From Actinoplanes sp. KI2 (GTDB taxonomy: Bacteria; Actinomycetota; Actinomycetes; Mycobacteriales; Micromonosporaceae): DNA of 64,000 nt. The first letter of the stretch is position 1; each line of letters begins with the position of its first letter. The notes under the pieces are model-generated. The model was given only the letters and a program-made list of their open reading frames with translations, ran no database searches and was not told where the DNA came from. A program made the position numbers and the translations under genes. Shown here in pieces: positions 37,421 through 54,288 of the stretch. Where the stretch lies: assembly GCF_025630775.1 (NCBI RefSeq), contig NZ_JAOSZE010000039.1:1-64000 (forward strand), read 5' to 3'.

Positions 37421-39499
37421 TTATCGGCGCCGGCGAATTCCGGCGAGCACGTCCTCGTCGGTGATCGGCTCGGCGTGCGCGAAATCGACCCGGCGCAGGG
37501 CGCCGAGACGCGCCTCGCGGGCGATCATCGCCACCTCGGCGGCGGAGCTTCCCTCGGTCATCGAGGCGTACGCCGGATACTGTCCCGCCAGTTCGTCCGC
37601 TCTCAGGTACATGGCGAACAGCTCGACCCGGCCCGCGTGATCGGGCAGCGGCACCTCGATGTGCAGCCCGAGCCGCCCCGGGCGCAGGATGGCCGGGTCG
37701 ATCGCGTCCGCGTTGTTGGTCGCCCCGATGATCGAGACCGGACCGAGGTCGACCAGACCGTCCATCTCGGCCAGCAGCTGGTTCACCACCCGGTCGCCGG
37801 CGCCGCCGTCGGTCGCGCCGCCGTTGCGCCGCCGGGCGACGGCCTCGATCTCGTCGAAGAAGATGACGCAGGGCGCCACCGATCGGGCCCGCTCGAACAG
37901 GTCACGGACCGCCTGCTCGGACTCGCCGAACCACTTGGTCAGCAGTTCCGGGCCACGGACCGCGATGAACCGGGCGCCGCATTCGTGCGCGACCGCCCGG
38001 GCGAGCAGCGTCTTGCCGGTTCCGGGCGGCCCGTACAGCAGAACGCCGCGCTCCATCCGCAGGCCGGCCTCGGCGAAGACCTGCGGCCGGGAGAGCGGCA
38101 GCACCAGGCGCTCGCTCAGCTCGGTGGCGGTGCGATCCAGGCCGGCGATGTCCGCGAACGTGGTCGCCGGGATCTCCGAGACCACGCTGCCGATGGCCGA
38201 CGGCGAGACCAGCGTCAACGCCTCCTCCCAGTCGTCGGGCTGAATCTGCAGCGGCGCCCGCGCCGTCGGGGTCGCCGACTCCAGTTCCTCGGCGGGGAAG
38301 GCGCGGCGAAGGGCGACCCGGCCGGCCTCGTCGCAGAGCGCCTCCAGGTCGGCGCCGACGAACCCGGCCGTCCGGCGAGCCAGATCGGCGGTCAGCTCGG
38401 TCCGCCGCGGCTCGCCGAACGACAGGGCCAGGTTGCGGTTGTGCACGGTCAGGATGGCGCGCCGGTCATCCTCGCTCGGCGCGGTGACCGCCACCTGGTG
38501 CCCGATCCGGCCGAGCCGCCGGATCGCCGGGTCGATGTGGTCGCGGCGGGTCGTGGTGGCGATGACGACCGGCCGGTCGGGCTCGTCGAGCACCTGCTGC
38601 AGGACGCTGAGCAGCGGGGAGACCGCGCCCGGCGCGGACCGGTCGCCGGCGATGTAGTCGAGGTCGTCCAGGATCACCAGGTGCGACGAGCCGGCCTCGG
38701 CGGCGAACGCGGCCCGCAGCTCCGCCTCGGCTTCCGGCGGCTGCTTGGCGGCCAGCGCCGAACCACTGAGCATGGTCGTCCGGGCGCCGCTGGCCGCCGC
38801 GACGGTGCGGGCGAGCAGCGTCTTGCCGGTGCCCGGCGGACCGTAGATCAGGACGCCGGACGGGGCGGTGACGCCGATGGCGGCCAGGTCGGTCCGGCGC
38901 CGCAGGGGCAGCTCGACCTCGCGGCGCAGGAGCGCGATGGCGTGGTCGAGGCCGCCGATGTCCTCGTACCGGAGGGCGCGGCCGGGCGCTCCGGGCGCCC
39001 GCCGCACGGTGATCTCCAGCCGATCGCTCATCGACGCCACCTCGACCGGTACGCCGCCGGCGCGCACCGACACGACCACGTACTCGCCTCGGCCCTCCGC
39101 ACCCAGCGGCTGGTAGAGGAACCGCAGGCCGGGATAGAGCAGGTAGTGCCCGTTCCGGAGGAACTCGGCGAGGCCGGCGCCCGCGTCCAGGTCGGGGCCG
39201 GTCCAGCTGTCCAGGCGCACCTCGACCGCGTCGGCCGGCGGGACCTGCTCGGCGTCGAGCCGGGCCACGTCCACCGGCTCGCCGTCGGCGACGCCGAGCG
39301 CGGCGACCTGCCAGCGGTCCAGCAGCACCCGTTCGGTGTGGGTCAGCCGGTTGGTGAGATCCCAGGCGAGGCGGCAGAAGATGGCCGCGTTCCGCGACGC
39401 GATCCGCACCCGGCTGCCGGCCGGCAGCCCGGGGATGCTGGCGAAACAGCTGCCGTAGATGGTGTCCGGCCCGGCGCTCTGCACGGTCGCGGTGCTCAC
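37421..39499 (-). CDS. Cdc48/VCP-like double AAA+ ATPase
   Basis: A 692-residue ATPase. An N-terminal region of about 175 residues is followed by D1 (Walker A GPPGTGKT at about 220-227, Walker B LVILDDLD near 275-281) and D2 (Walker A near 490, Walker B FFDEIEAVA near 548, GATNNADAIDPAILRPGRL). D1 has Asp where the catalytic Glu is usual, so D2 may be the main motor. Cdc48-type unfoldases extract or unfold ubiquitin-tagged proteins in eukaryotes and archaea-like systems. Here it sits last in the tightly coupled run with Ubl, E1-, E2- and JAMM-like genes, which suggests the same role. The GTG start overlaps the JAMM gene stop (GTGA). Confidence 0.93.
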   Translation of the reverse strand: MSTATVQSAGPDTIYGSCFASIPGLPAGSRVRIASRNAAIFCRLAWDLTNRLTHTERVLLDRWQVAALGVADGEPVDVARLDAEQVPPADAVEVRLDSWTGPDLDAGAGLAEFLRNGHYLLYPGLRFLYQPLGAEGRGEYVVVSVRAGGVPVEVASMSDRLEITVRRAPGAPGRALRYEDIGGLDHAIALLRREVELPLRRRTDLAAIGVTAPSGVLIYGPPGTGKTLLARTVAAASGARTTMLSGSALAAKQPPEAEAELRAAFAAEAGSSHLVILDDLDYIAGDRSAPGAVSPLLSVLQQVLDEPDRPVVIATTTRRDHIDPAIRRLGRIGHQVAVTAPSEDDRRAILTVHNRNLALSFGEPRRTELTADLARRTAGFVGADLEALCDEAGRVALRRAFPAEELESATPTARAPLQIQPDDWEEALTLVSPSAIGSVVSEIPATTFADIAGLDRTATELSERLVLPLSRPQVFAEAGLRMERGVLLYGPPGTGKTLLARAVAHECGARFIAVRGPELLTKWFGESEQAVRDLFERARSVAPCVIFFDEIEAVARRRNGGATDGGAGDRVVNQLLAEMDGLVDLGPVSIIGATNNADAIDPAILRPGRLGLHIEVPLPDHAGRVELFAMYLRADELAGQYPAYASMTEGSSAAEVAMIAREARLGALRRVDFAHAEPITDEDVLAGIRRRR

Positions 39500-40329
39500 C
39501 CCGCCTCCTCGGCCGCGGCCCCGGCTTCGGCCTCGACCGACGACTCCAGCGGCTCCGACGACTCCAGCGGCTCCGACGACTCCAGCGGCTCGGACGACTC
39601 CAGCGGCTCGGACGACTCCAGCGGCTCCGGCGGCTCCGGCGGGAGCCGGCTTCCCAGCAGGACGGGTTCCGGATCGGGCTCGGGCGGGCTCTGCGGCATC
39701 GGGAAGACGCTGTGCACGCCGCCGGCGCCGACAATCTCCCAGCAGCCGCCGTTGCCCTCCTGGTCGAGGGCCGCCGCGAGCAGCGCCGAATCCTTCCAGC
39801 CCACCGTGTCCGGCGGCGCCGGCTCCACCTCGGACACCCACTGCCGGTCGGCCGTCCGCGGCCCCGGCTCCGCCGGCGCGTCCCCGTCCGGCGCGGCCCA
39901 CCAGCCGATCCGATCGATCTCCGGGCCCGGGAGGTACGGGTCGATCACCACGGCAACCGCGGCCGGGTCGAGCCGCGTCCAGGAGGCGAAGGTGGTGACG
40001 TCGGTGGTCGACAGGTAGAGCCCGATCGCCGGATGCGTGTGGACCCACCCGACGATCCGATCGACCGGCCGCATGGCGTCGGCCGGCTCGACCGTGTCCG
40101 ACGCGTTGCGCAGGATCTCGATCGCGTTCACCGCGAACGCGCAATGGCTCGACGCGTACGCCAGCTGGGGTGGGAAGACCGCCAGCGAGACCTGAATCTT
40201 CGCATCGTCGCGGCGGCCGAGCAGCACGCCGCCCCGCTCCACCGGCACCGGTTGCCGGAGGAACTCGACCAGGGTCCGGGCGAGTCCGGGATCGAACTGG
40301 ACCGTCGGCTTCTCATCGCCGGGTTGCAC
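39496..40329 (-). CDS. JAMM/MPN-domain peptidase with EPLESS repeat tail
   Basis: A 277-residue protein. Residues about 10-140 form a JAB/MPN domain with a complete zinc peptidase set: Glu31 in VERGGVLLG, His97 and His99 in GWVHTHP, Ser107 and Asp110 in LYLSTTD (HxH then ten residues then D). Such enzymes remove or mature ubiquitin-like proteins. The C-terminal third contains five copies of EPLESS and an Ala/Glu-rich end and is likely disordered. A GTG start is used, giving a 17-base overlap with the upstream gene. It follows a second, membrane-bound JAMM gene. Confidence 0.9.
   Translation of the reverse strand: MQPGDEKPTVQFDPGLARTLVEFLRQPVPVERGGVLLGRRDDAKIQVSLAVFPPQLAYASSHCAFAVNAIEILRNASDTVEPADAMRPVDRIVGWVHTHPAIGLYLSTTDVTTFASWTRLDPAAVAVVIDPYLPGPEIDRIGWWAAPDGDAPAEPGPRTADRQWVSEVEPAPPDTVGWKDSALLAAALDQEGNGGCWEIVGAGGVHSVFPMPQSPPEPDPEPVLLGSRLPPEPPEPLESSEPLESSEPLESSEPLESSEPLESSVEAEAGAAAEEAG
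39542..39631 (-). repeat. Five 18-bp tandem repeats encoding EPLESS
   Basis: Five copies with an 18-base period begin at 39542, 39560, 39578, 39596 and 39614 on the + strand (GACTCCAGCGGCTC plus four variable bases). Copies differ mainly by C/G in one wobble position. They encode the acidic hexapeptide tail of the JAMM protein. Copy number could vary between strains. Confidence 0.9.
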
Positions 40330-41371
40330 GAGACAGCGCTCCCTTCGGTACGGCGTCGCCGAGCAGGATCATCGGGGGCTGGGCGCCCCCGGCGGCGTAC
40401 GCGCCGTTCAGCGCGGCCCGCAGCCGGGCGAGCGCGCCGCGGTCGACCAGCCCGGGGGTGGTGTTCATCGGCAGGATCTTCCGGCCGTCGCCGTTGAACA
40501 CGCCGATCGCCTCGGGCAGCGCGGTCCGGCTGATGTCGATGACGATCGGGGTGAAGCCCGGGTCGAGCGCCCGCCACTTCTGCGAGGTGGCGTGGTCGGT
40601 GCCGGAGAGGAACACGCCGAGTCGCGGATGCGTGTGCACCCAGGTGATGGCGATGGTGCCGGGCCGTATCCCGATGGACGGCCCGACCGCGTCGATCGCC
40701 TGGCGTACCCGATCGACCTCGGCCGACGGGAACTCGCAGGCCACGGCGTTGGCCAGGCGCTGCGCCGGGAACACCGCGCCGAACACCAGCACGGTCCGGT
40801 GGGTACGCACGAGCAGCGCGACGCCGCCCTGCTCGTACGCCCGTGGGTCGAGATGGCGCCGGGCCTCCCGCCAGAACCCTTCGTCCAGTGCGACGGCGAG
40901 CTCGGTCCGGCCGAGCCGGTGCTCCCAGCCCGGCCGCAGCAGCGGCGCGCCGGACCGGGCCGGCGTCACCCAGCGCCAGCGCCGGCGCGGTCCACGATGG
41001 ACGGACACCGCCAGCATCGGGCCGGCGGCGAGCGGTGGCAGCAGCAGCCAGGTGCCGATCGGCTGGCGGGCCAGCGTGAGGCTCATCGCGACGGTGATCA
41101 GCAGGAACGTCCCGAGCAGGCAGAGTGCCAGGCCCAGGCGCAGGGCGGCCGGGTCGGCCTCGGCCCAGCTGGTGGCGAGCACCGGCAGGCCGACGACGGC
41201 GAGGGCGACGGCGATCGAGAGGCCCCAGGCGGCGGCCTGCTGTCCGGCGGCGTCCCCCCGGCGGCCGGTCACCACGTACGTCGCGGCGAGCGCGAGGAAG
41301 TAGACGGACCAGATGAGGACGCCGACCGCTCTCGGCCAGGCTTGGTAGTAGCTATCTGGCTGGGCTGACAT
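40313..41371 (-). CDS. Membrane-anchored JAMM/MPN-domain peptidase
   Basis: A 352-residue protein with four predicted membrane segments (about 14-35, 47-68, 77-100, 106-124) followed by a cytosolic JAB/MPN domain. Its zinc peptidase residues are Glu180 (AYEQGGVALL), His246 and His248 (TWVHTHP), Ser256 and Asp259 (VFLSGTDH), with the same spacing as in the downstream soluble homologue. Placing a deconjugating enzyme at the membrane is unusual. GCGGAGAACC precedes the ATG; a second ATG four codons upstream is the alternative. It overlaps the E2-like gene before it by 20 bases. Confidence 0.9.
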   Translation of the reverse strand: MSAQPDSYYQAWPRAVGVLIWSVYFLALAATYVVTGRRGDAAGQQAAAWGLSIAVALAVVGLPVLATSWAEADPAALRLGLALCLLGTFLLITVAMSLTLARQPIGTWLLLPPLAAGPMLAVSVHRGPRRRWRWVTPARSGAPLLRPGWEHRLGRTELAVALDEGFWREARRHLDPRAYEQGGVALLVRTHRTVLVFGAVFPAQRLANAVACEFPSAEVDRVRQAIDAVGPSIGIRPGTIAITWVHTHPRLGVFLSGTDHATSQKWRALDPGFTPIVIDISRTALPEAIGVFNGDGRKILPMNTTPGLVDRGALARLRAALNGAYAAGGAQPPMILLGDAVPKGALSRATRR

Positions 41372-41822
41372 GGTTCTCCGCATTCAGGAGTTGCTTGGCG
41401 TATTCCAGGGCGTTGCCGAGCGTCCGATGGGACGGCGGCGCCTGCCGCCAACCGGCCGCGAAGGTGTTCCAGCAGAGGCTGGGCAGCCAGCTACCGGCCC
41501 AGGGGCAGTAGTTCTTGGCCGACGGCCAGATGTTGACGTGCCGGATGTCCCGATCGGCCGGTGTGCGCACCCACGCCGGTGGGATGGCCGCGCCCAGGTT
41601 CGAGACGTCGACGATCAGCAGGTACGGGCAGCGCGCGAGGCGGTCCGGATCCCGGCCGCCGCGGATGCCGGTGACGCTCAGGCGGATCGCCATCACCGGT
41701 CCGGTCGGTTCGGTGGTCCGCCCGGACCGTCGTGGCGGCGGTGTGACACCGCGGGCGATCACCCCGAGGTCGGGATAGCCGCTCGCGGCGAGTTGCTGCA
41801 CCGCGGCGTCGGTGACGCCCAT
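41352..41822 (-). CDS. E2 (UBC)-like protein 2
   Basis: A 156-residue protein that matches the prokaryotic E2 pattern. It has PPAWVRTP before HVNIW (H95, N97), then YCPW (C106), LPSLCWNT (C117, the likely catalytic cysteine), a conserved Trp (AAGW) and a C-terminal helix ending in LNAENHVSPAR, which parallels the PNPxDPA end of UBC folds. It would accept a ubiquitin-like protein as thioester from the E1-like enzyme. It lies 1 base downstream of its paralogue. The frame is open upstream, but that part belongs to the paralogue gene; the ATG before GVTDAAV is used. Confidence 0.78.
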   Translation of the reverse strand: MGVTDAAVQQLAASGYPDLGVIARGVTPPPRRSGRTTEPTGPVMAIRLSVTGIRGGRDPDRLARCPYLLIVDVSNLGAAIPPAWVRTPADRDIRHVNIWPSAKNYCPWAGSWLPSLCWNTFAAGWRQAPPSHRTLGNALEYAKQLLNAENHVSPAR

Positions 41823-41823
41823 C

Positions 41824-42249
41824 TCATCGGGCCGGGCTCTGCGGATAGACGTCGGCGAGCACCTGACGCACCGCCTCGAGGAGATTGGCCAGCCGCCGTT
41901 CCGAGGTAGCCGCGCCACGCCACGCCGCAGGCGTGGTACCCCAGCAGAGCGTGGGCAGCCGCGTGTTGGTGAACGGGCAGACCTCCCGGGCCCGGTAGAT
42001 GTTCCGGTGCACGATCTGCGAATCCTGCGGAGACGAGATCCAGATCGGCGGCAACCCGGTCTCCAAGCTGCGCACGGAGGCCAGGATCCGGTACGAGACC
42101 GGGCGGCGGTCGTGGAGGCTGCCGCCGGAGATGCCGCCGATGATCACCGCGATGGCGGTGATGTCGCTGCCGCTGGTCGCCAGCGGCTGGAGGCTGGGGA
42201 ACATGCCGGTCGCCCGGCGGAAATCGTTACTGCTGATCGGAATGGACAT
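41824..42249 (-). CDS. E2 (UBC)-like protein 1
   Basis: A 141-residue paralogue of the following gene. It shows LPPIWISSP, HRNIY (H81, N83), VCPF (C91), LPTLCWGT (C102, likely catalytic cysteine), AAW and the C-terminal helix ending VLADVYPQSPAR. Both E2-like proteins keep the two cysteines eleven residues apart. The two may form a pair, one active and one regulatory, or serve two targets. It overlaps the E1-like gene by 23 bases. E2 assignment comes from motif order, not from an alignment. Confidence 0.78.
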   Translation of the reverse strand: MSIPISSNDFRRATGMFPSLQPLATSGSDITAIAVIIGGISGGSLHDRRPVSYRILASVRSLETGLPPIWISSPQDSQIVHRNIYRAREVCPFTNTRLPTLCWGTTPAAWRGAATSERRLANLLEAVRQVLADVYPQSPAR

Positions 42250-43939
42250 GGCTGCTCAGCTCCTCGGTGGGCGCGGCCTCTAGCAGGTGGGCGGGGCATT
42301 CCCCGGGGTCGCGGTCGGTCGCGCGGTAGCCGGCCAGGACTCCGTCGATCCCGTTCCAGGCGTGGAAGCGCGCCACCGCGGCGGCGTTGCCGGTGAGCTC
42401 GGCGATCAGCGTCGCGGCCTGGACCCCGCCGACGATTGCCGCGCCGGTGGCGATCGACGGCACCGGGACCGGACCGGTGACGTCCGTGCAGGAGAGCCGG
42501 ACCGGGTCGAGCGCCACCGATCGGCCCAGCCAGCAGACGACGCATCGGCCGTTGTCCTTCGGATCGCACACGTGCACCCGGCCGACGAAGCCGTCGACGG
42601 CGCCGTTCACCCAGGCGATGCCGAGCCGCTCGGTCAGGCAGTTGAGCACCCAGCGGGTCTGCTGGTTGTCCGGGCAGGACAGCACCGCGTCGGCGGATCG
42701 CAGCGCCGAGCCGAGCCGGTCGATCCGGCGCCGCTGCTCCGCGACGGCCGGGTCCACGTCGAGCAGCACCTCGCTACCGAGCAGCTGGTCACGCCCGTGC
42801 ACGTCGATGACGGTCTGGATCCCGGTCAGCCGGATCGCCGGATTGATCGCGGTGAGCCGCTCGGCGGCCCGCTGCGCCTTGGGTTTGCCGATGTCGGCGC
42901 GGGTGTAGAGCACCTGCCGGTTGAGGTTGTGCCGTTCGACCTCGCCGTCCATGTCGACGACGCACAGGTCGAGCTCGTCGGCGGGCGTCGCGGCCAGGGC
43001 GGCGCCGGCCCAGCTGCCGAGGGCGCCGGCGCCGACCATCACCACCCGCGAGGCCGGCAGGCGATCGGGTACGGCGACGTCCGGTCCCGCGAACGGCGAC
43101 CAGCTCAGCGTGGGCACGGGCCGGGCCGGCAGCCGGTTCGGCCGGACGGTGACGCCGGCCGTGGTGGCGTGTGCCGGCAGGCTGACCACCACCGTGTCGT
43201 CGTCGACGATCATCGTGATGCGAGCGTCCACCGGATCGCCGTCGCGGAGGATCCGGAATCCGGCGGCGACGGCCGGGCCGGTGGCGACGCTCAGCACCGA
43301 GCCCAGATCGGGTGCGTCCAGCCCGGTGGCCGCCGCGAGCCGGCCGATTCCCGGCTGGCGCAGCCACAACCGCTCCTCCGTCCAGCCGGACAGCACCGCG
43401 GGGCCGCTGACCAGCGCGCCCAGCCCGCCGAGCACGGCCTGGGCGAGCAGCCCCCCGCAGACGCACGCCAGGGCCGGGGTGAGCACGTTGGGCGTGGCCG
43501 GACCGTCCGGCACCGGCTCGGGCCCGATCGTCAGGGCGGTGGTGCCCACCCCGCCCCAGATGTCCACCGCGCCCCGGGCGGCGATCCCGGCGGACTCCCC
43601 GGCCGCCGGGACGGCCACGGTCAGCGCCCGGTGCACCGGCGCACTGCCCACGGTGATGTTCACCGCCGGGTCGAGATCGTGCACCCGGCGGACGAGCATG
43701 GCGCCGAGCGGCTCGCCGACGTCGTCCGGCCGCAGCAGAAACTGCCCGGCCACGTCGGCCGGGGTGGCCGGGCGGCCGCAGTCCCGCAGGTGGACGGCGC
43801 CGTGCCGGGTCGCGACGCCCAGCATCGCCAGGCACTGCAGCAGATAGGTCAGGGCGGGCCCGGTGCCGGCCACCTCGACGGTCGCGTCGGCCAGCACGTC
43901 CTGGGCGACAAGCGCCTGCTGTCGTGCGTACCTGTCCAT
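42227..43939 (-). CDS. E1-like adenylating enzyme (ThiF/MoeB/UBA family), double Rossmann
   Basis: A 570-residue protein that starts with DRYARQQALV, the RYxRQ opening typical of E1 enzymes. An N-terminal pseudo-Rossmann unit (VEVAGTGPALTYLLQCL) lacks a proper nucleotide loop. The C-terminal ThiF domain (from about 298) has VVMVGAGALGSWAGAAL, the aspartates in VVDMDGEV, HNLNRQ with its arginine, and SCPDNQQTR. A CxxC pair lies in NGRCVVCW near 465. The probable catalytic cysteine is in RLSCTDVTGPVPVPSIATG near 483. It would adenylate the C-terminal glycine of the Ubl encoded 2 bases upstream and pass it to the E2-like proteins. Confidence 0.9.
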   Translation of the reverse strand: MDRYARQQALVAQDVLADATVEVAGTGPALTYLLQCLAMLGVATRHGAVHLRDCGRPATPADVAGQFLLRPDDVGEPLGAMLVRRVHDLDPAVNITVGSAPVHRALTVAVPAAGESAGIAARGAVDIWGGVGTTALTIGPEPVPDGPATPNVLTPALACVCGGLLAQAVLGGLGALVSGPAVLSGWTEERLWLRQPGIGRLAAATGLDAPDLGSVLSVATGPAVAAGFRILRDGDPVDARITMIVDDDTVVVSLPAHATTAGVTVRPNRLPARPVPTLSWSPFAGPDVAVPDRLPASRVVMVGAGALGSWAGAALAATPADELDLCVVDMDGEVERHNLNRQVLYTRADIGKPKAQRAAERLTAINPAIRLTGIQTVIDVHGRDQLLGSEVLLDVDPAVAEQRRRIDRLGSALRSADAVLSCPDNQQTRWVLNCLTERLGIAWVNGAVDGFVGRVHVCDPKDNGRCVVCWLGRSVALDPVRLSCTDVTGPVPVPSIATGAAIVGGVQAATLIAELTGNAAAVARFHAWNGIDGVLAGYRATDRDPGECPAHLLEAAPTEELSSHVHSDQQ

Positions 43940-43941
43940 GG

Positions 43942-44190
43942 TCAGCGCAGCCCGGCGGAACCGCCGCGGACCTCGTCGCCGGGGAGGCCGACCGACAGCG
44001 TCAGCCCGGCGAAGTCGGTGGCCTCGCGGTTGTCGACGACCTGGCCGTCCTTGTCCCGCACACTGAACGGATTGCCGGCCGCGATGAGGCCGCTGGCCTC
44101 CACCGCCTGCTGCACGGTCTGTCCGGGCTGGACCTCGACCGGCTGGTTGTTGCCGTCCAAGGCGTTGCGGAAGTTCACTACCGTCGTCAT
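43942..44190 (-). CDS. Ubiquitin-like protein with RGG and C-terminal tail
   Basis: An 82-residue small protein whose alternating strand pattern (TTVVNFRNA, QPVEVQPGQTVQQAVEASGL, FSVRDKDGQVVD, GLTLSVGLPG) fits a beta-grasp fold. It ends GDEVRGG followed by SAGLR. The RGG at 75-77 matches the end of mature ubiquitin-like modifiers, and the last five residues would have to be cut off, a job for the JAMM peptidases in the same operon. It lies 4 bases overlapped with the radical SAM gene and 2 bases before the E1-like gene. The fold is inferred from pattern and context. Confidence 0.82.
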   Translation of the reverse strand: MTTVVNFRNALDGNNQPVEVQPGQTVQQAVEASGLIAAGNPFSVRDKDGQVVDNREATDFAGLTLSVGLPGDEVRGGSAGLR

Positions 44191-44909
44191 CTGGTCTCTC
44201 CGTCGTCCGGCGAATCGGCGCCCTCGCGCCGCCTACCGTGTCCTGACGGACGGGGACGCCAGGTGACCGTCTCGGGCGGCAGCCCGCGGCGGCGCATCTC
44301 GCGATCCAGCCGGGGCAGGGTTCCGCGCAGCGGCACGCCGACCAGCCACACGCCGTGCTCGTCCGCGCGCAGCTGCAGCGGCGGCTGCTCCGGTTCCAGG
44401 GCGAGGTAGGGCGCATAGCGGCGGCGGCCCAGCTCGGACTGCAGGACCATCTGCTGGTTCGCCGAGCCGCGCCAGACCAGCCGGGTCGGCCGGTCGGCCT
44501 CGTACCGCCCGGTGACCAGGACGTCCGCGTAGGAGGCGGCGAGCCGCTGCGCCGGGTCGAGCTCGTCGAGGGTGTAGCCGGTGAACATCAGGATGTCCGG
44601 CTCGCCGGGCCGGCCGGCGCGGACCTGATCGGCCGCGTCGAGGAAGGCGGCGAGCGGGCCGGGCTGGGCCAGCGGCTCGCCGCCGCTGATGGTCAGGCCG
44701 GCGGCGCCCCGGCCGAGGGCGGCGCGCCACCGCTCGGCCAGAGCGTCCACCGGCATCGCGGCGCCGCCGTCCGGCTCCCAGGTGTCCAGCGACATGCATC
44801 CCTTGCAGGCCAGCGGACAGCCCTGCACCCAGACACCGAGTCGCAGGCCGGGGCCGAGCGCGCTGACCGGGAAGTGGGTACGCGCGACCCGGAGCGTCTC
44901 GCCGGTCAC
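44187..44909 (-). CDS. Radical SAM protein (NrdG-like)
   Basis: A 240-residue enzyme with the 4Fe-4S radical SAM motif CPLACKGC (C31, C35, C38) directly after LRLGVWVQG, then LTISGGEPLAQPGPL and ILMFTGYTLDEL, as in NrdG-type activating or small radical SAM proteins. It could introduce a radical modification on a protein in this operon, for example the Ubl encoded next to it, but there is no direct evidence. The C-terminal 60 residues are Arg-rich. The GTG start overlaps the stop of the upstream membrane protein (GTGA); its stop overlaps the Ubl start (ATGA). Confidence 0.9.
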   Translation of the reverse strand: MTGETLRVARTHFPVSALGPGLRLGVWVQGCPLACKGCMSLDTWEPDGGAAMPVDALAERWRAALGRGAAGLTISGGEPLAQPGPLAAFLDAADQVRAGRPGEPDILMFTGYTLDELDPAQRLAASYADVLVTGRYEADRPTRLVWRGSANQQMVLQSELGRRRYAPYLALEPEQPPLQLRADEHGVWLVGVPLRGTLPRLDREMRRRGLPPETVTWRPRPSGHGRRREGADSPDDGETR

Positions 44910-46105
44910 CGCCGGACCTGCAAACCCCGTCGATGCTGGACCGCCTCGGTGAAGGCGGGATCGCCCACGGTCCGGGCGAGCGCGGCGAAGTAGGCGTCCT
45001 CGGCCGCGGCGTACGCCTCGCGGATGGCCCGCTCCTGAACCTCCGGGTCGCCGCCGGCCGGGCCGTCCGGACCGGGCGGCGAGAGGTACGCCGGGTTCAG
45101 CCGGGTGGCCGTCGCCCGCATCAGCAGGTCGAACCGGTTGCGGTGGGCGCGGTTGCGGACGTACGCCTCCTGGAACGGGTGCCGCCGGGCGAGCCCGAGC
45201 ATGAACGACATCGCGCCGACCAGGAGCATCAGCGCCACGAACATTCCGATCACGGTCAGCGGCGTCACGGTGATCTGCTCGGGCCGGCCGAGGTGCTGCT
45301 CCAGCACGCGGCCGCGGAGCAGACCGAGCACTACGGCCACGAACAGCCAGCTCGCCACCAGCACGGCCGCCGCGTACCAGCCGCGTCGCTCGCCGCCGGT
45401 GGCGTTCCGGCTGCGCAGCAGCGTGCCGGAGAGGAACGGGCCGAGCACGATCACGCCCGACGTCAGCAGCGCCATCCAGCGGGTCAGGGTGGCCTGCGAC
45501 GGCTCCGCGCCGAGGAAATGGTCGAACACGGCGAACTGCACGATCGTCTCGGCGGCGAGGAGTACACCGAGGATCAGCACCCGCCAGATCAGCCGCAGCG
45601 GGACGGTCTCGCCCTCCCACGGCGTGCGGTCGCCCTCGTGCGGCTGCTCGACCGGGTCGAGCAGGCCGTCCAGGTCGGCGGCGGCCCGGGCCTCGGCGGC
45701 CGCCTCCTGGGTGGCCAGCCCGGCCATCCGCGCCCGGGCGTCGTCCATCCGGGCCTGTGACTCGTCCCGGCGGGCCTGGGCCGCCGCGATCCGCTCCTGG
45801 GTGTGCTGCTGGGCGGCGCGCAGCGAGGCGAGCGCCCCGTCCCGGCGGCTGCGCAGCTCGCGTACGTAATCGGGGTCGAAGTCCTCGGACGGCGGGTCGT
45901 CCGGCCCGCCGAAGGACCAGGGGTCGTACATCGTGGCTTCGGCGTCCGCGACGCCCCGGCGCTCCGCCTCGGCGGTCAGCTCGGCCGCGGAGATCCGCGG
46001 GTCGACCTGGGGGCGGGGCAGCGGGGCGGACTGGGCCATGCGTAAGCCGCCGGCGATGGCCCACAACGACCACCACCGTTCGATCAGGCGCTGGAAGAAG
46101 GCCAT
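44906..46105 (-). CDS. Four-TM membrane protein with coiled coil
   Basis: A 399-residue protein of unknown function. An acidic, Asp/Pro-rich N-terminal part is followed by a predicted coiled coil (about 90-160, rich in Ala, Arg and Gln). Four membrane segments follow (WRVLILGVLLAAETIVQF, a second near GVIVLGPFLSGTLL, WYAAAVLVASWLFVAVVLGLL and VIGMFVALMLLVGAMSFML), then a charged cytosolic tail. The ATG before AFFQRLIERWW is chosen. It overlaps the FHA gene by 22 bases. It may anchor the complex at the membrane together with the kinase and the membrane JAMM protein. Confidence 0.8.
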   Translation of the reverse strand: MAFFQRLIERWWSLWAIAGGLRMAQSAPLPRPQVDPRISAAELTAEAERRGVADAEATMYDPWSFGGPDDPPSEDFDPDYVRELRSRRDGALASLRAAQQHTQERIAAAQARRDESQARMDDARARMAGLATQEAAAEARAAADLDGLLDPVEQPHEGDRTPWEGETVPLRLIWRVLILGVLLAAETIVQFAVFDHFLGAEPSQATLTRWMALLTSGVIVLGPFLSGTLLRSRNATGGERRGWYAAAVLVASWLFVAVVLGLLRGRVLEQHLGRPEQITVTPLTVIGMFVALMLLVGAMSFMLGLARRHPFQEAYVRNRAHRNRFDLLMRATATRLNPAYLSPPGPDGPAGGDPEVQERAIREAYAAAEDAYFAALARTVGDPAFTEAVQHRRGLQVRR

Positions 46106-46683
46106 GGTCTCGGGTCCTGACGGGAGAGGTCGACGACGGTTCCCTCGGCGTGCAACGCGAAGCGGATCCGGGCGTCCGGGCGCAGCAACCGGCGCTCGGA
46201 GGCGGGGATCTCGACGCCGTCGAGGAAGGTGCCGTTCGGGGTGGGCACGGGTTCGATCCAGGCGCGGCCGTTCGGCTCGGTCCCGATCACCGCGTGGTGG
46301 CGGGACACGTTCGGGTACGACCGGAAGAGCGCGGCGTGCGGGCCGAGCCGGCCCAGCTCGACGCGGGCGTCCCGGCCGAGCTCGACCTGACCGGCCGGGA
46401 AGCGGACGACCAGCGCGGGCGGCGTCAGCGATCGGCGGCAGTCCGGGTTCAGGCATTCCGTGTTGCCCGGGTGGGCCACCGGCGTGCCGCAGTTCCAGCA
46501 GACCGAGCGGTCGACGACCGGCTGCGGCGAGGGCTCGGGGTGCGGCGAAGGCTCGGGGTGCGGCGAAGGCTCGGGCATCGCCTCCGCCGGATAGGGCTCC
46601 AGGGGACGGACGTGATCCGGGCAGAGCCCGAGGTCGTCGTCGAAGAGCCGGCCGGGGCCGCAGCGGGGGCAGACCTGGCTCAC
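46084..46683 (-). CDS. Zinc-ribbon and FHA-domain protein
   Basis: A 199-residue adaptor. The N-terminus has two zinc-ribbon-like clusters (CPRCG with LCPDH, and CWNCG with CLNPDC) joined by a linker with three PEPSPH-type repeats. The C-terminal half is an FHA domain with LGRLG, SYPNVSRHHAVI and the NGTFLDG loop that binds phosphothreonine peptides. It probably reads phosphorylation by the Ser/Thr kinase encoded in the same operon. The GTG start overlaps the stop of the ClpB-like gene (GTGA). Confidence 0.9.
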   Translation of the reverse strand: MSQVCPRCGPGRLFDDDLGLCPDHVRPLEPYPAEAMPEPSPHPEPSPHPEPSPQPVVDRSVCWNCGTPVAHPGNTECLNPDCRRSLTPPALVVRFPAGQVELGRDARVELGRLGPHAALFRSYPNVSRHHAVIGTEPNGRAWIEPVPTPNGTFLDGVEIPASERRLLRPDARIRFALHAEGTVVDLSRQDPRPWPSSSA

Positions 46684-48671
46684 AACGCCCGCCCGGCCGC
46701 GGTCACCCGCGCCTCGATCCTCGGCCCGGCGGTGGCGGTGCCGGGATACGCCGCAGTGATCTCCACGGTCGAGCCCGGCGGGGCGTCCAGGTCGAAGAGC
46801 TTGCGGGCGAGCGGGTTGATGAGGTTGCTCTCCAGCAGGTTGCCGATGCCCCGGCCGCCGTTCGGCGTGTCGATCGTGCACGCCGCCCGGAGCTGGTCGC
46901 GGGCCTGGTCGGTGAGGCTGAGCGACATCTGCAGCTCGCGTTCGACGGTCCGGACGATGTTGGTCAGCTGCAGCCGGAAGATCTGGTCGGCCGAGTCCCG
47001 GTCGATGAAGTTGAAGACGACGATGTTGTCGCCCAGCCGGTTGAGCAGCTCGGGACGCTCCAGCGTGACGGTGAAGTGCTCCCGTACGGCGGCCTTCACC
47101 GTCGCCTCCAGATCAGGGTAGGGCATGCCCGGTTGGACCTGCTGGACCCGTTCTCCGGTGGTCTTGTCGGTGGTGATGATGCCGAGGTTCGACGTGAAGA
47201 TCAGGACACATTCGGAGAAGTACGTGGTGATGCCCTGCCCGTCGGTGAGCCGGCCGTCCTCGAGGATCTGCAGGAACTTGTCCAGTACCGACTTGTTGGC
47301 CTTCTCGATCTCGTCGAAGAGCACGACCTGGAACGGGTTGCGCCGGACCGCCCCGGTCAGCTCGCCGCCGGCCTCGAAGCCCACGTAGCCGGGCGGCGCG
47401 CCGGTGAGCCGTTCGGCCGCGTGGTCCGCGGCGAACTCGCTCATGTCGAACCGCAGGTAGGCGTTGACGTCGCCGAACAGCAATTCGGCGATCTGCTTCG
47501 CCATCTCGGTCTTGCCGACGCCGGTGGGCCCGGCGAAGAACAGCACGCCCCGGGGCCGGGAAACGGTGCTGGTGGCCTGGGCGCCGGAGAGGCCGAGGGC
47601 GGCGCGCTTGAGGATGTCCAGGGTCTTGCCGGTGGCCCGGGGCTGGCCGATGATCCGGTTGGCGATCACCCGTTCGCCGTCGGTGATGTGCTTCTTCACG
47701 CTGTCGTGCCGCCACGGGTTGTCGGTGACCCCGAACTTGTAGGCGCGGACCGCGTCGGGGATCTGACCGGCGCCGAGCCCGCGGTCCCGGGACAGCCGGA
47801 CCACCTCGGTCATCGCCCGCAGCGTCATGCCCTCGGTGAGCTTCGCGAACTCGGCCGCGGGGGCGGCGCCGCCCGGGTTCCGGGCCGGTGGCAGCATCGG
47901 CACCACCACCTCGGCCAGCCGTTCCCGCTCGCCGAGCGTCGGCATGCCCACCGCGATCGTACGGATCGGCTCCGCCCCGGAGGTCAGCCAGGCCGGCAGG
48001 TCGCGCTCGCCCTCGGTCAGCCAGATGATCGGGTTGTACCGCTCGCCCGGCACCTGCCCGGTCTCGAACGGCTCGGCGGTGAAGGCCAGCTTCTGGCAGT
48101 ACAGGAAGAAGTCGCGCTCCGCCGGGTCGAGCTGGCCGGGCACCCGGGTGATCCGGGCGGCGTAGTCGATGACGACGGCGGCCCGCACCGGCGGCCGGAC
48201 CGTCGGGTCGCGTTTCGCCGGCGCGGCGGCCTGGTGCCGGGGGCCGGGCTGCCGGGGATCGGGCGTGGGCTCACCCGGGCCCGGCCCGGCGGTGCCGCCC
48301 TCCGGCGGCGGCTGCTCGGCGACGCCGACGACCTTCGCGAGGTGGACGCGGAGCCGTTCCAGCGACGGCCGCCGCCCGATGACCCGGTTGCCGAGCAGCC
48401 GCTGGGCCGCTTCGATCGGCACCGGCTGCGGCGGAAAGACGGTGACGCCGTCGACCGGGTCGTAGCAGACCAGGCAGCTGTATCCGCGCGGGGCGAGCGC
48501 CGCCCAGAGCAGCGGCAGCATCGCCACCGGCCGGGCCGGCCGGCCCGGCGGCTCCATCAGAAACAGGTCACGCAGGTTGCCGTGCAGCACGAACTGGGAA
48601 TGCACGGCGAGCGTGCCGGCCAGCTCGTTGACGAACGCCGGGAAGCCGGGCAGCAGCGGCGCGGTGGTCAT
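46680..48671 (-). CDS. ClpB/ClpA-like AAA+ ATPase with degenerate first half
   Basis: A 663-residue protein. The C-terminal half is a Clp-type AAA_2 domain with Walker A GPTGVGKTE near 380, Walker B VVLFDEIEKA near 452, GAPPGYVGFEAGG pore loop and the ClpB D2-small region. The N-terminal half looks like an AAA unit that has lost its P-loop (HSQFVLHGNLRDLF, PIIWLTEGERDLP). It lacks the usual ClpB N-domain and M-domain. It may disassemble or remodel a complex made by its neighbours. It is coupled by 4-base overlaps on both sides. Confidence 0.9.
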   Translation of the reverse strand: MTTAPLLPGFPAFVNELAGTLAVHSQFVLHGNLRDLFLMEPPGRPARPVAMLPLLWAALAPRGYSCLVCYDPVDGVTVFPPQPVPIEAAQRLLGNRVIGRRPSLERLRVHLAKVVGVAEQPPPEGGTAGPGPGEPTPDPRQPGPRHQAAAPAKRDPTVRPPVRAAVVIDYAARITRVPGQLDPAERDFFLYCQKLAFTAEPFETGQVPGERYNPIIWLTEGERDLPAWLTSGAEPIRTIAVGMPTLGERERLAEVVVPMLPPARNPGGAAPAAEFAKLTEGMTLRAMTEVVRLSRDRGLGAGQIPDAVRAYKFGVTDNPWRHDSVKKHITDGERVIANRIIGQPRATGKTLDILKRAALGLSGAQATSTVSRPRGVLFFAGPTGVGKTEMAKQIAELLFGDVNAYLRFDMSEFAADHAAERLTGAPPGYVGFEAGGELTGAVRRNPFQVVLFDEIEKANKSVLDKFLQILEDGRLTDGQGITTYFSECVLIFTSNLGIITTDKTTGERVQQVQPGMPYPDLEATVKAAVREHFTVTLERPELLNRLGDNIVVFNFIDRDSADQIFRLQLTNIVRTVERELQMSLSLTDQARDQLRAACTIDTPNGGRGIGNLLESNLINPLARKLFDLDAPPGSTVEITAAYPGTATAGPRIEARVTAAGRAL

Positions 48672-49939
48672 CGGGCCTCCCGCGCTCGCGGCCGCGCGAT
48701 CGGCGTCTCCGGAGTGGTCCGGCCCCGGCGCTGCGGCACGTGCCCGTGGTCGATGACCACCTCGGCATCCAGGCGGTCGGCCAGCTCGGCCAGGTCGGCG
48801 TTGAAGCCGTCGCAGCGGTCACGGTCGCGCATGGCCGCCTCGTCGCCGTCGACGTCCTGGTCGCGGACGACCCGGCCGTGCACCACGTTGTGCTCGTCGA
48901 TCCAGACCTCGGCGGAATGCTCGCCCTGCCAGTCGGTACGGGTCAGATGCAGGTCGGACGTGCCGTCCACGGTGTAGCCCTGATCGGCCAGGCACTGGCT
49001 GACCGTCTCCCGGACCAGGTTCGCGCGGACCACGCCCTCCGCCCACCGGACCGCCCCGGCGCCCTCGCGCAGCAGCTCGGGCGTGAGGTCGGCGTCGCCG
49101 GCGACGACCGCGCGGAGTTTCGCGGCGGTCCCGGTGTACGGCGCCGGCGGCGGGGTGCGGACCACGACCGGTTCCTCCAGCACGCCGGTGAGCTGGGCGG
49201 CGAGGCGCCGGCGGGCTGCACGCCCGTTCACGTCGGCGACCTTCATCTGCAGCTGGCGGGCGAACATCGTGCCGGCGCCGGCCGTCCGCGCCCGGGCCGC
49301 CGCCTCGAGCGCCTCGAACCGCTCGTTCTCGTTCACGTCCGCGTCGAGCGTCCGCAGGATCGCGTCGACGTCCGGGCCGCGGCCGGCGGGGCGGGCGACC
49401 GCGGGCGCGGGCCCGGGCCGGCGGTTCCGCAGCGCGTCCTGCAGCCGGCTCAGCGCGGCCGCGGTGTCCGGCAGCGCCGAGACGGTCCGGGGCAGGGAAG
49501 CGGCCAGCCGTTCCCGCTCGGTCGCGGCGCCCGCGGTGGCGAGCGCGTCGTTGGCCGCTACCAGCAGGACCCGGGCCCGCGCGGCCCACTCGACCGCCTG
49601 CTGCTCGGTGCACCCGTCGAGATTCAGCGGCGCGGGCACCGCGACCACCACGCCGGTCCGGCTGGCCCGCTCGGCCAGCAGGCGGATCCGCGCGTTCACC
49701 TCGACGACCTCGGCCGCGATGTGCGGCCAGCGCAGCGCCGCGATCTCCGCCTGGCTCTGGCGTTCGGCCTCGTTCTCGAGTCTCTGCCCCACCTCGCCCA
49801 GCGCGCGCAGCGCCGCCTCGGCCGCCTGGTTCACGGCCCAGACGGTCAGCGCGGCCGCGGCCGCCGCCGTGAGCACCACGACCGCACCGGCAGCCAGCAC
49901 GGCGGCCATCGGCAGGACCACAATTCCACCAGCACTCAT
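48668..49939 (-). CDS. Membrane-anchored coiled-coil protein, unknown function
   Basis: A 423-residue protein that I do not recognise. One long hydrophobic N-terminal segment (AAVLAAGAVVVLTAAAAAALTVWAV) is followed by helical, Ala/Arg/Glu-rich sequence with coiled-coil character to about 280, then a globular C-terminal part with QCLADQGYTVDG and VWIDEHNVVHGRVV. The ATG is preceded by GGTGAGGAGG at a short distance. It is the first gene after a 41-base gap that carries the GTCCGTCAG motif, so an internal promoter may start here. Confidence 0.75.
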   Translation of the reverse strand: MSAGGIVVLPMAAVLAAGAVVVLTAAAAAALTVWAVNQAAEAALRALGEVGQRLENEAERQSQAEIAALRWPHIAAEVVEVNARIRLLAERASRTGVVVAVPAPLNLDGCTEQQAVEWAARARVLLVAANDALATAGAATERERLAASLPRTVSALPDTAAALSRLQDALRNRRPGPAPAVARPAGRGPDVDAILRTLDADVNENERFEALEAAARARTAGAGTMFARQLQMKVADVNGRAARRRLAAQLTGVLEEPVVVRTPPPAPYTGTAAKLRAVVAGDADLTPELLREGAGAVRWAEGVVRANLVRETVSQCLADQGYTVDGTSDLHLTRTDWQGEHSAEVWIDEHNVVHGRVVRDQDVDGDEAAMRDRDRCDGFNADLAELADRLDAEVVIDHGHVPQRRGRTTPETPIARPRAREAR

Positions 49940-49980: not shown

Positions 49981-52227
49981 TCAGGCTCCGCGGGCCGCCA
50001 GCAGCTCGCGTGCGCCCCGATCGGCCTCGGCCCGCTCGTGCTCCTGGTCGGTGTGCCAGTGCAGGTAGCGGGGGACGGTCGAGGCCACGATCCCGAGGCC
50101 GGCGAGCAGCGGGGTGATCATCGGCTGGTACGCGGTCAGCACGGCGGCCAGGCCCAGCACCCCGAGCAGCACGCCGACGGCGATCCGGCGGCCGGTGAGC
50201 GACCGGGCGGCCCGGCCCAGCGCGGTGAACCCGGCGCCCAGCGTCGAGTAGCGCGGATGGAACCGGCCGCCGATCTCCCAGGCCAGCACGGCCTCGGCGG
50301 TGAGCGCGGCCAGGCCGGCGAACATGGTGGCGACCCAGGCGTTCAGCACGGCGCCGTCCGAGGCGAGGGCGACGCTGTCGCTCACCGCGATGAGGACCCC
50401 GCACAGGGCGATCATCAGGAACACCCCGGCGACCGCCCAGGAGAGCGCTACCGGCCGGTTCTGCCGGCGCGACCACTCCCGGAACCGGCGGTTGCGGTTC
50501 AGCCAGGCGCGGCGCCGGGCGGCGGCCAGCTGCTCCTCGGCGCGTTCCTCGGCGTAGTCGCGGACCTGGTAGGCGAGCCACGGTCCGTCCGGCTGCTCGA
50601 CCAGGCGGGCGAACCACGGCAGCCGGAACCGGCGCGCCTCCGCCGCCCGCTCCCGCCGGATCTCGGCGCGCGTGTTGTCGTCCGCCACCGTCGCCCACAG
50701 GCTCAACGCCAGCGCGCGGGCGCGCGCCCGCGCGCGGTCCGCGGCGGCCTCGTGGGTGCCTTCCAGCGCGGCGCGTGCGCCCGGGTCCTCGATCTCTCGC
50801 GCGGCCTCCTGCCACCGCTGCCGGCGGCGCCGCCACTGCCGGTCGACCTCGTCGAGACCGTCGCCGCCGGTGAGGCCTCCGCCGGCCCCGCCGGTGGCGA
50901 GCAGCGGCAGCAGGCGGAACCGCCACAGCTCGTGCACGATCGCGGGCGAGTTGCCGTCGTTCGTGAACGCGCCCAGGGCGATCGCCGGCAGCGTGGCCCG
51001 GACCACGTTCACGCCGCGGTAGATCGGCGGAAGCATCGGCGCCATCGACCGGAGCAGGCGCAGCAGGCGCACGTTCGCGGGCTCCGCGGGGTCGTCGGTG
51101 TATGCCGGATCCGGCGGGAACTGCTCCCGCCACGCGGTCAGGGCACGCAGCGGTTCCGGGTCGTCGCCGAACAGCAGCCGTACGGTGTGCTCCCAGTTCG
51201 CCGTCATGGCCAGGGCGAGCAGCACCCGGTTGCGGTACTCGGTGTCGGCGTACGGGTAGGGGTGCTCGGCCGCGATCTCGGTCTCCGCCGCGCCGGCCGG
51301 AGCCGGGTACGCGATCGGCACCGCCGGGGAGTCGCCGTCCAGCCATGCGGTCACCTGCTCGCCACCCCAGCGTTCGTTGAGGTTCTGGGCGAGCAGGCCC
51401 TGGCACAGCAGCCGCAGGCGCGGGTCCACGACCACCTCGGTGCTGACCGGCCGGGCGGCGATCTCGACCCGGACCAGCACGTCGTCCAGGCCGTCGAGGA
51501 ACGGCTCCCCGGTGGCCAGTTCGAGAACGCTGATCCCCAGCGACCACCAGTCGAAGGCGGGCGACACCAGCTGTCCGCTGACGTACTCGGGCGGCAGGTA
51601 TCGCACCGTCCCGGAGGCGTCGGTCACCGACTGCCCGAACGGCGCGTACACGCTGATGCCGAAGTCGATCAGCGCGATCTCGAGCGGCGCGAGGCGGCGC
51701 ACCAGGACGTTCGCCGGCTTGACGTCCCGGTGCACGATCCCGTTGGCGTGCATCTCGCCCAGCGCGTCGGCGAGCTGCCGGACCACCCCGGTCAGCGCCT
51801 CCGCGGTGAACCGGGCCGGGTCGCTGCGCCGCAGCTCCGTCAGACTCCCGCCGGCCAGGTGCTCCAGCACCTCGTAACCGCGGCCGTCCGCCGTGCCGAC
51901 CTCGGCGACCGTCACGGCGTACCGGCTCTGCTTGCTCTCCAGGAACGTCCGCACCGCGGTTTCCGGGCCCGGGCCCCGGTAGAGCTTCAGCACCCGCTCG
52001 GCGCCGCTGGCCCGCTCCTCGACGAGGCACACGTCCGCCTCGGCACCGGCCCGGTCGAGCCGGCGCAGCACGACGAAGCGCGCGTCGAGGGCCGGCGGCA
52101 GCCCTTCCGGGACCGCGGGCCTGGTGCGGCCCGGGTCCAGCCGGGTGATGTCGCCGTCGTCGAGCCGGTGCCGGCCCGGGTCGAGCTCGGTGACGGGCGC
52201 GTCGGCATCGGGTGCCGGATGCGTCAT
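49981..52227 (-). CDS. Membrane Ser/Thr protein kinase
   Basis: A 748-residue kinase. The catalytic domain (about 45-300) has the VAIK-type lysine in ERVLKLYRG, HRDVKPANVL near 160, IDFGIS and the GTVRYLPPEY activation end, so it looks active. The glycine loop is poorly formed (LDRAGAEADV). A long helical region follows, then about four membrane segments near 590-720 (SWAVAGVFLMIALCGVLIA and others) and a cytosolic tail. It lacks the PASTA repeats of PknB. It probably phosphorylates partners read by the FHA protein of the operon. Confidence 0.92.
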   Translation of the reverse strand: MTHPAPDADAPVTELDPGRHRLDDGDITRLDPGRTRPAVPEGLPPALDARFVVLRRLDRAGAEADVCLVEERASGAERVLKLYRGPGPETAVRTFLESKQSRYAVTVAEVGTADGRGYEVLEHLAGGSLTELRRSDPARFTAEALTGVVRQLADALGEMHANGIVHRDVKPANVLVRRLAPLEIALIDFGISVYAPFGQSVTDASGTVRYLPPEYVSGQLVSPAFDWWSLGISVLELATGEPFLDGLDDVLVRVEIAARPVSTEVVVDPRLRLLCQGLLAQNLNERWGGEQVTAWLDGDSPAVPIAYPAPAGAAETEIAAEHPYPYADTEYRNRVLLALAMTANWEHTVRLLFGDDPEPLRALTAWREQFPPDPAYTDDPAEPANVRLLRLLRSMAPMLPPIYRGVNVVRATLPAIALGAFTNDGNSPAIVHELWRFRLLPLLATGGAGGGLTGGDGLDEVDRQWRRRRQRWQEAAREIEDPGARAALEGTHEAAADRARARARALALSLWATVADDNTRAEIRRERAAEARRFRLPWFARLVEQPDGPWLAYQVRDYAEERAEEQLAAARRRAWLNRNRRFREWSRRQNRPVALSWAVAGVFLMIALCGVLIAVSDSVALASDGAVLNAWVATMFAGLAALTAEAVLAWEIGGRFHPRYSTLGAGFTALGRAARSLTGRRIAVGVLLGVLGLAAVLTAYQPMITPLLAGLGIVASTVPRYLHWHTDQEHERAEADRGARELLAARGA

Positions 52228-53416: not shown

Positions 53417-54288
53417 GGTGTCTCCTCCGGTCGGTCCGTTCTGGGTTGACGTTGATGCGGTGGTCGCGGCGGGTACGCGGGCGGGAGCGGGATCGGCACG
53501 GTCGGGTCGTCCCACCCGGTCCGGCCGACCGCCCGGGCCGCGTTCCGGTTCTGCGCGAAGATCAGCTCCGCGTCCGCCCGGAGCCGGTTGGCGGTCGCCT
53601 CGAACTGCCGATCCACCTCCGCCATCGCGACTTCGCGGCGCCGGCGCGCCCGGCTGATCGCCAGCCACACCTGTTCGGCCTGCGAGAACTCCCAGTGCGT
53701 GTCGGCGTGCTTAGTGGCCGCCGTGGTCCGCTTGGTGGCGGCCCGGCCGAACTGCCGGGCGGCCGGCTCCTGCCGGAAGTAGCCGGCCAGGCTCGCCACC
53801 ACCCCGGTCGCGATGTACAGCACGAGGAAGAGCAGCGCGGACAGGTACAGCGGCGTGCTCGACCCGCCGGTGCCCAGGTCGTCGGTGACGGTGCCGCTGT
53901 CGGTGGTGAACGTGGAGGCGCCGCCCGGCTCCAGGACCAGCCGCACGACGAACGCGACCACGCCGAGCATCGCCCAGGTGCCGCCGAGCACCAGCGCCAG
54001 CGTCTTCGAGCCGGTGATGTTCCGCGGGTTGATCGTGGCCCGCGCCTGGAGCCCGGCGTAGTGGGCCAGGGTCAGCGCGACCGAGGCGAACCCGGCGACC
54101 GCGATCGTCACCATCAGCGGCGGGACGTTCAGCACCAGGATCAGCACCTGGTAGAAGGTCACCACGTCGACACCCCCGGCGGCCAGCAGGACCAGCCAGA
54201 ACAGGCCGTGCGTCCAGGACCGCCCGGCGATCTGCGAGAGGTCGCCGTGGATGATGCCGCGCGGTGGCCGGTCGGTGGGCTCGATCAT
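53413..54288 (-). CDS. Four-TM membrane protein with coiled-coil tail
   Basis: A 291-residue protein of unknown function. Four membrane segments occupy about 25-175 (LFWLVLLAAGGVDVVTFY, VTIAVAGFASVALTLAHYAGL, LALVLGGTWAMLGVVAFVV, LYLSALLFLVLYIATGVVASL). A charged helical part follows (REVAMAEVDRQFEATANRL) and a Pro-rich end. It overlaps genes on both sides by 4 bases. It probably belongs to the same membrane assembly as the kinase and the OmpA-domain protein. Confidence 0.8.
   Translation of the reverse strand: MIEPTDRPPRGIIHGDLSQIAGRSWTHGLFWLVLLAAGGVDVVTFYQVLILVLNVPPLMVTIAVAGFASVALTLAHYAGLQARATINPRNITGSKTLALVLGGTWAMLGVVAFVVRLVLEPGGASTFTTDSGTVTDDLGTGGSSTPLYLSALLFLVLYIATGVVASLAGYFRQEPAARQFGRAATKRTTAATKHADTHWEFSQAEQVWLAISRARRRREVAMAEVDRQFEATANRLRADAELIFAQNRNAARAVGRTGWDDPTVPIPLPPAYPPRPPHQRQPRTDRPEETP

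Follow-up and report, generated by a model that had tools for sequence, protein, structure and literature searches.

A probable ubiquitin-like conjugation and processing module with a Cdc48-like ATPase in Actinoplanes sp. KI2

Seven adjacent genes in a 64,000-nucleotide stretch of Actinoplanes sp. KI2 DNA (NZ_JAOSZE010000039.1, assembly GCF_025630775.1, positions 1 to 64,000; hereafter the window) probably form a dedicated bacterial module for ubiquitin-like conjugation and processing, acting by the steps proposed below. The seven open reading frames (ORFs) occupy 37421-44190 of the minus strand, in the transcription order ubiquitin-like protein (Ubl), activating enzyme (E1), two conjugating-type proteins (E2a and E2b), two JAMM peptidases (JAMM2, then JAMM1) and a Cdc48-like ATPase. 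Gene order, the predicted folds of Ubl and E2a, key residues, conservation and selection are directly established.

Ubl, 43942..44190, minus strand: 82 amino acids, one beta-grasp domain, end ...GG-SAGLR, single lysine K47
E1, 42227..43939, minus strand: adenylating enzyme with a C-terminal ThiF domain (putative acceptor Cys484) and a probably degenerate N-terminal ThiF-like half
E2a, 41824..42249, minus strand: predicted UBC-fold protein; H81-x-N83, C91, C102
E2b, 41352..41822, minus strand: E2a paralogue; C106, C117
JAMM2, 40313..41371, minus strand: membrane segments predicted at the N-terminus, followed by a JAMM domain (HTHPRLGVFLSGTD)
JAMM1, 39496..40329, minus strand: JAMM peptidase (HTHPAIGLYLSTTD) lacking any hydrophobic segment; tail of EPLESS repeats
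Cdc48-like ATPase, 37421..39499, minus strand: N-region of about 180 amino acids and two AAA domains

A first-pass annotation made from the DNA alone had described these seven genes as co-directional, their junctions measuring -23 to +2 bases. All of the frames were found at its coordinates and on its strand, and each of the identities that it gave to the seven parts has support from a family model, a motif, a fold or paralogy. With gene starts chosen by the analyst, the junctions are +2 bases for Ubl-E1, -23 for E1-E2a, +1 for E2a-E2b, -20 for E2b-JAMM2, -17 for JAMM2-JAMM1 and -4 for JAMM1-Cdc48. The ratio of nonsynonymous to synonymous substitution rates (dN/dS), computed for the window against the genomes G034 and G007, was 0.07-0.49 across the seven genes and below 0.5 in 14 of 14 comparisons, lowest for Ubl against G034 and highest for JAMM2 against G007. 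Because the gene order recurs in other genomes and dN/dS stays in this range, the core ORFs are more than chance frames.

Family models name the core only in part. Twenty proteins of the window, 19 from the minus strand, were scanned with Pfam, one batch with E up to 1 and the other with E up to 0.1; the matches considered for the ATPase are the best 25 of 52 families. Only E1 (ThiF), JAMM1 (Prok-JAB and JAB) and the ATPase (AAA, in two stretches) passed the Pfam cut-off among the seven core proteins, and neither E2, JAMM2 nor Ubl gave a match above it. Pfam, NCBIfam and PADLOC together supplied no name for either E2 and none over cut-off for Ubl. A sequence search of the Protein Data Bank (PDB) with E2 and Ubl profiles returned chance-like matches only, such as EgtB (0.099) and beta-lactamase inhibitory protein II (1.5e-4, confined to a short repeat). 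As the first-pass annotation had noted, no RING-type E3 is apparent; the same Pfam scans, with that limit on the ATPase, found no RING family.

The beta-grasp fold of Ubl, on which the first-pass annotation had staked its reading, is present in the AlphaFold2 (AF2) model (pLDDT, the predicted local distance difference test, 81.1), and the model's best PDB match is 8tyx_A, titled as a bacterial Ubl-deubiquitinase complex. Gly-Gly occurs in all 16 Ubls (15 of 15 aligned, plus that of G1385), followed by a tail of 0-12 residues; a tail is present in 14 of the 16, two lacking one, and judged from these termini trimming would be needed in those 14. Exactly one lysine precedes Gly-Gly in 16 of 16, always within VRDK[DN]G. 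In the window it is K47, which lies directly after the third strand of the model, a position that we take to be close to that of K48 in ubiquitin.

The two E2-like proteins are related to each other (BLASTP, 39% identity over 114 residues, 2e-24). The first-pass annotation had also made its reading depend on their modelling as UBC folds; this is borne out for E2a by the AF2 prediction, with strands that include 84-90 and 97-101, and for E2b it would hold through homology. The first Foldseek match of E2a was the UEV domain of Vps23 (E 0.10, probability 0.77), and RWD domains followed in places 4, 10 and 11. These matches are what favors taking the E2-like proteins as non-catalytic binders of the UEV or RWD kind, with E1 or spontaneous chemistry doing what little conjugation takes place. 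Because the Foldseek result was weak, VIA-align was applied to the same list, and its re-ranking placed catalytic E2s on top. H81, N83, C91 and C102 are moreover invariant in 15 of 15 E2a rows, 14 of 14 mixed rows and 56 of 56 rows of a wide set; the wide set comprises 52 of 66 database matches and four locus sequences, and the 14 database rows outside it, the window's own and 13 close E2a sequences, are all within the 15-row E2a alignment. Two E2s were also present in each genome found. Non-catalytic E2s are for these reasons improbable, and this reading is put lower than a conjugation module.

The cysteines C102 of E2a and C117 of E2b, singled out by the first-pass annotation, do occupy equivalent positions, but a second conserved pair went unmentioned there: 11 residues ahead in each protein lies another conserved cysteine, C91 in E2a and C106 in E2b. 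Strands 84-90 and 97-101 of the model may pair as a hairpin, and if this pairing is real C102 comes back near H81 and N83. The spacing of C91 from N83 is nearer that of classical E2s. Both E2s end in S-x-A-R, with Ser138 and Arg141 in 56 of 56 E2-family rows and Ala in 53 of 56.

The two JAMM proteins are likewise similar to each other (37% identity over 127 residues, 2e-19), and the JAMM signature (E and HxH(x7)SxxD) is complete in five of five JAMM2 and four of four JAMM1 sequences scanned. The best solved relatives of JAMM2 are RPN11 and CSN5 (E from 0.003), and its G362 orthologue matches Pfam JAB at 1.4e-4, slightly below cut-off. A simple hydropathy scan gave 2-5 hydrophobic segments in each of five JAMM2 orthologues. 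JAMM1 matches Prok-JAB at 1.5e-6, over cut-off, and the NCBIfam 6A-MBL model cap2_3 at 1.9e-4. Near the JAMM1 C-terminus (39500-39640) runs a series of EPLESS repeats, which the G034, G007 and G362 orthologues lack. A far stronger Prok-JAB match (6.3e-29) lies elsewhere in the window's genome, at G000:C125:6813-7157.

E1 matches Pfam ThiF at 8.9e-41. Its N-terminal half alone gives a ThiF match of 0.0015, and since this is below cut-off the half is likely, though not certainly, a degenerate E1 half. GAGALG, R341, K354, D424, the zinc-type pair C466/C469 and C484 are invariant in the five aligned E1s, the sixth, from G1385, not being included; the acceptor cysteine had been numbered 483 in the first-pass annotation and becomes 484 when counted from the ATG at 43939. 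The best PADLOC models for the adenylation domain are 'E1-E2' (8.2e-10), and cap2_3 matches E1 at 1.2e-8. By sequence the best PDB relatives of E1 are ThiF and MoeB, followed by ATG7. ATG7 works with two E2s, ATG3 and ATG10, so that one E1 and two E2s here could attach Ubl to a membrane component, whether a lipid or a membrane protein, with a predicted membrane-anchored JAMM2 recycling it. Such an ATG8-like arrangement is very unlikely: no lipid-specific feature was found, ThiF relatives outscore ATG7, and the Cdc48 ATPase better suits protein targets. Least credible, and again placed below conjugation, is a sulfur-carrier pathway in which E1 makes a thiocarboxylate on a ThiS/MoaD-like Ubl that JAMM only matures; it draws on the ThiF and MoeB resemblance and on published ThiS/MoaD-E1-JAB operons (PMC1779556), against which stand two UBC-type proteins with invariant cysteines, two JAMMs, an unfoldase, the probably degenerate N-terminal half of E1 and the finding of no rhodanese or sulfur-metabolism family over cut-off among 19 Pfam-scanned row proteins.

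The last core protein matches Pfam AAA at 3e-69 in two stretches. Its best NCBIfam model is TIGR01243 CDC48 at 444 bits, which does not reach the cut-off of 803, with FtsH at 309 bits. Both Walker A motifs read GPPGTGKT (220 and 490), and the Walker B motifs are LDDLD in D1 and FFDEIE in D2. As regards docking to the proteasome, the C-terminus, IRRRR, lacks the GQYL end of the host's Mpa. The host genome encodes 20S proteasome alpha and beta subunits, Mpa and Dop, all over NCBIfam cut-offs, as well as another Cdc48 homologue on contig C120 (504 bits, under the NCBIfam cut-off), to which the window ATPase is 39% identical over 521 amino acids. Because of that second homologue, the window ATPase is regarded as an extra paralogue.

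From these observations we infer every reaction, the direction of transfer, the membrane site, any coupling of modules and any role in defence. A JAMM peptidase would cut the Ubl precursor back to Gly-Gly; E1 would adenylate Ubl, take it on Cys484 and hand it on to E2a and E2b; and the two E2s would attach it to target proteins, probably doing so at the membrane or close to it and with no RING-type E3. The tag would be removed by JAMM1 and by JAMM2, the latter at the membrane, and the Cdc48-like ATPase would dismantle tagged targets or extract them from complexes. An upstream kinase/FHA/ClpB/radical-SAM module would, in the window, be coupled to the core, probably for sensing or as effector. 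Gene anatomy agrees with the first-pass proposal of a locus that tags proteins and afterwards unfolds them or strips off the tag. A self-contained bacterial counterpart of the ubiquitin-p97 pathway is conceivable but unlikely: as K47 lies roughly at the place of K48 in ubiquitin, it could serve the paired E2s for chain building, and membrane-associated targets bearing such chains would be extracted by the dedicated Cdc48-like ATPase and freed of the tag by the membrane JAMM, possibly as a supply to the host's 20S proteasome.

Several points weigh against a conjugation module of this kind. Conjugation of Ubl is a prediction from genes and models. The Ubl Pfam matches were all sub-threshold (Ub-RnfH, in 13 of 15 Ubls), none of the 56 E2-family rows matched a UBC or Prok-E2 model (E up to 0.1), and the window JAMM2 had no JAB-family Pfam match. 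AF2 gave poor models of E2a in two of five cases, Foldseek with E2a gave no match at E<=0.001 and had unrelated chains among its top rows, and the UBC fold of E2b is assigned by homology only. We lean towards C102 as the catalytic cysteine; this is unproven, and C91 is the other candidate. The N-region of the ATPase, taken alone, matched no Pfam family, and the ATPase could have a role other than unfolding Ubl conjugates.

The seven-gene system is rare. E1 relatives were found in five of 354 genomes of the family, and E2 relatives in the same five, with both E2s in each, as also in G1385. Among 100 relatives, three had E2a relatives, and all three belong to the same genus; in another genus of the class one of 194 genomes had a match. 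Samples of the class (394 genomes, searched with E1), the order (200, with an E2 profile) and the phylum (396, with a wider E2 profile) yielded the window's own genome only, one each; since few candidates per genome were scored at first look (3, 20 and 9 in the rows shown), absence from these samples is approximate. Database proteins of the E2 family are named from Streptomyces, Dactylosporangium, Phytohabitans and Allorhizocola. Of 110 candidate stretches from a genome-contig scan with E2a, one locus was confirmed, in Actinoplanes italicus; the scan is considered insensitive because it missed genomes found by the other genome search. No match was found in plasmids (E1), phages (E2b) or viral contigs (E1 alignment). 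The window genome is flagged as 7% contaminated; G034 carries the same row on a 7.2-Mb contig, at 65-99% protein identity.

Core gene order is kept in six of six loci as far as their contigs extend, and the ATPase is present in the five that reach that far. The core is whole in G000 (the window genome), G034, G007 and G362; that of G1385 ends inside JAMM1, and that of G115 is split across two contigs taken as neighbours, with a partial ATPase. Upstream of the core in the window lie twelve further minus-strand genes, extending to about 57211 with gaps of -22 to +41 bases, so that the core is the 3' part of a tightly packed 19-gene row whose maximum gap is 41 bases; from this spacing the row may be a single transcript. 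The tight coupling described in the first-pass annotation holds for the core set; the continuation of the row and a separable second module were overlooked, and the extent it gave for one set, 37421-46105, takes in the two nearest genes of that module (the first two listed here).

Radical SAM protein (NrdG-like), 44187..44909, minus strand: Pfam Fer4_12 1.4e-30
Membrane coiled-coil protein, 44906..46105, minus strand: four hydrophobic segments
Protein with zinc-ribbon-like Cys motifs and FHA, 46084..46680, minus strand: FHA 1.1e-9; Cys motifs by eye from the sequence
ClpB-like AAA protein, 46680..48671, minus strand: AAA_2 1.3e-45, ClpB_D2-small 1.5e-7
Protein with an N-terminal hydrophobic segment and a long polar region, 48668..49939, minus strand: no Pfam family
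Protein kinase with predicted membrane segments, 49981..52227, minus strand: Pkinase 1.9e-29
OmpA-like domain protein, 52235..53422, minus strand: OmpA 1.1e-14
Five small genes, M1-M4 and u1, at the head of the row, 53413..57211, minus strand: no family over cut-off

The kinase, OmpA, ClpB, FHA, membrane and radical SAM genes precede the core in G000, G034, G007 and G115. The roughly 27 kb preceding the core in G362 (L020, L021) gave no upstream-module match, and the 1.4 kb of contig that precedes it in G1385 holds no upstream-module gene. Since two of the six genomes thus lack these neighbours, the seven core genes form a module of their own. A reverse search with the ClpB-like AAA protein covered five genomes, all with matches, and the two best and longest (G028 and G010, same genus; L056-L059) were examined further. 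In both, matches to the kinase, ClpB-like AAA, FHA, radical SAM and CHAT proteins lie together, the radical SAM and membrane genes of G028 being on the opposite strand. Neither locus, each about 29-30 kb, showed a match to Ubl, E1, E2, JAMM or Cdc48, or to the OmpA-like or M1-M4 genes. Because the core lacks these neighbours in G362 and G1385, and upstream genes occur without it in G028 and G010, the window is best seen as combining two modules that can occur apart, of which the second recurs only partially. Two large CHAT-domain proteins lie beside the row, one divergent to it (57229-60084, plus strand) and one at 60101-63775 (minus strand). The divergent CHAT gene and u1 stand at the row head in G000 and G034, u1 having a match in G034 only, and neither was matched at that place in G007. 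The G362 core adjoins divergent MoxR-like AAA, vWA (CoxE-like) and two CHAT genes (L021:4502-12534), a neighbourhood that recalls published MoxR-vWA conflict systems.

If the proposed reading is true, a bacterium holds a complete set for tagging, untagging and unfolding in seven genes, with a dedicated Cdc48-like unfoldase included. Such a small, cloneable system would bear on how ubiquitin-like tags and Cdc48 came to cooperate, and on whether two E2s can dispense with a RING-type E3. With Dop, Mpa and 20S proteasome genes present in the same host, this could put two tagging systems in one cell. The seven-gene set was not found described in a partial search of the literature, so that an earlier description is possible, nor was a dedicated Cdc48-like unfoldase found in those portions of the bacterial Ubl literature that the search covered.

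Comparison with known systems places the module near several of them. The operon types 6a-6e of Iyer 2006 (PMC1779556) bring E1-like, E2-like, JAB and Ubl genes together; in the passages covered, no type is described with a pair of separate E2s, a membrane-bound JAMM or an ATPase of the Cdc48 kind, and the term 'AAA' does not occur in the main text. Type II CBASS (cyclic oligonucleotide-based antiphage signalling system) E1-E2 (Cap2) and 6A-MBL, compared through family models only, are alike in the E1 adenylation domain and unlike in that matches span about 70-150 residues, E1, E2 and JAMM are separate here, and no E2 match was obtained. Cpa, a Cdc48-like protein of actinobacteria, resembles the window ATPase, in the sections of PMC6017811 that describe it, in having an N-region and two AAA domains, the first less conserved, and no penultimate tyrosine at the C-terminus; the window protein is the additional paralogue in its host.

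In the anti-phage Bil system (BilABCD), according to a review (PMC11354881), a Ubl precursor is trimmed by a JAMM peptidase and acts with an E2 and an E1 whose N-half is inactive. The window shares Ubl, E1, E2 and JAMM with it, and the nearest solved structure to its Ubl carries the deubiquitinase-complex title given above; it differs in having one Ubl domain rather than the two consecutive domains of BilA, two E2s with H-x-N, two JAMMs and a Cdc48-like ATPase. PADLOC (E up to 0.01, with whichever Bil models it contains) did not list BilA, BilB or BilC for the core proteins and gave BilD at 3.3e-4. The FtsH-ternary (MoxR-vWA) systems with tri-ligase Ubl conjugation, as outlined in parts of PMC7159879, bring together caspase-like proteins, a double-AAA ATPase, Ubl, E1, E2 and JAB, and actinobacteria are among their hosts; their Ubl is fused to E2, an E3 of RING type is present, and the first AAA domain lacks P-loop and Walker B. 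The module here likewise joins Ubl, E1, E2 and JAB to a double-AAA ATPase, and its G362 core adjoins the MoxR-like, vWA and CHAT genes. In the 19 row proteins of the window, Pfam gave no vWA, and bpMoxR fell below cut-off on two AAA proteins (9.4e-6 and 0.026). Unlike the FtsH-ternary systems, it has separate Ubl and E2 genes, two E2s, no RING family among the matches considered for the 20 scanned proteins, and a Cdc48-like ATPase with both P-loops intact. The module would work like a ubiquitin cascade, and the tested features exclude plain membership of the Bil or FtsH-ternary systems as described.

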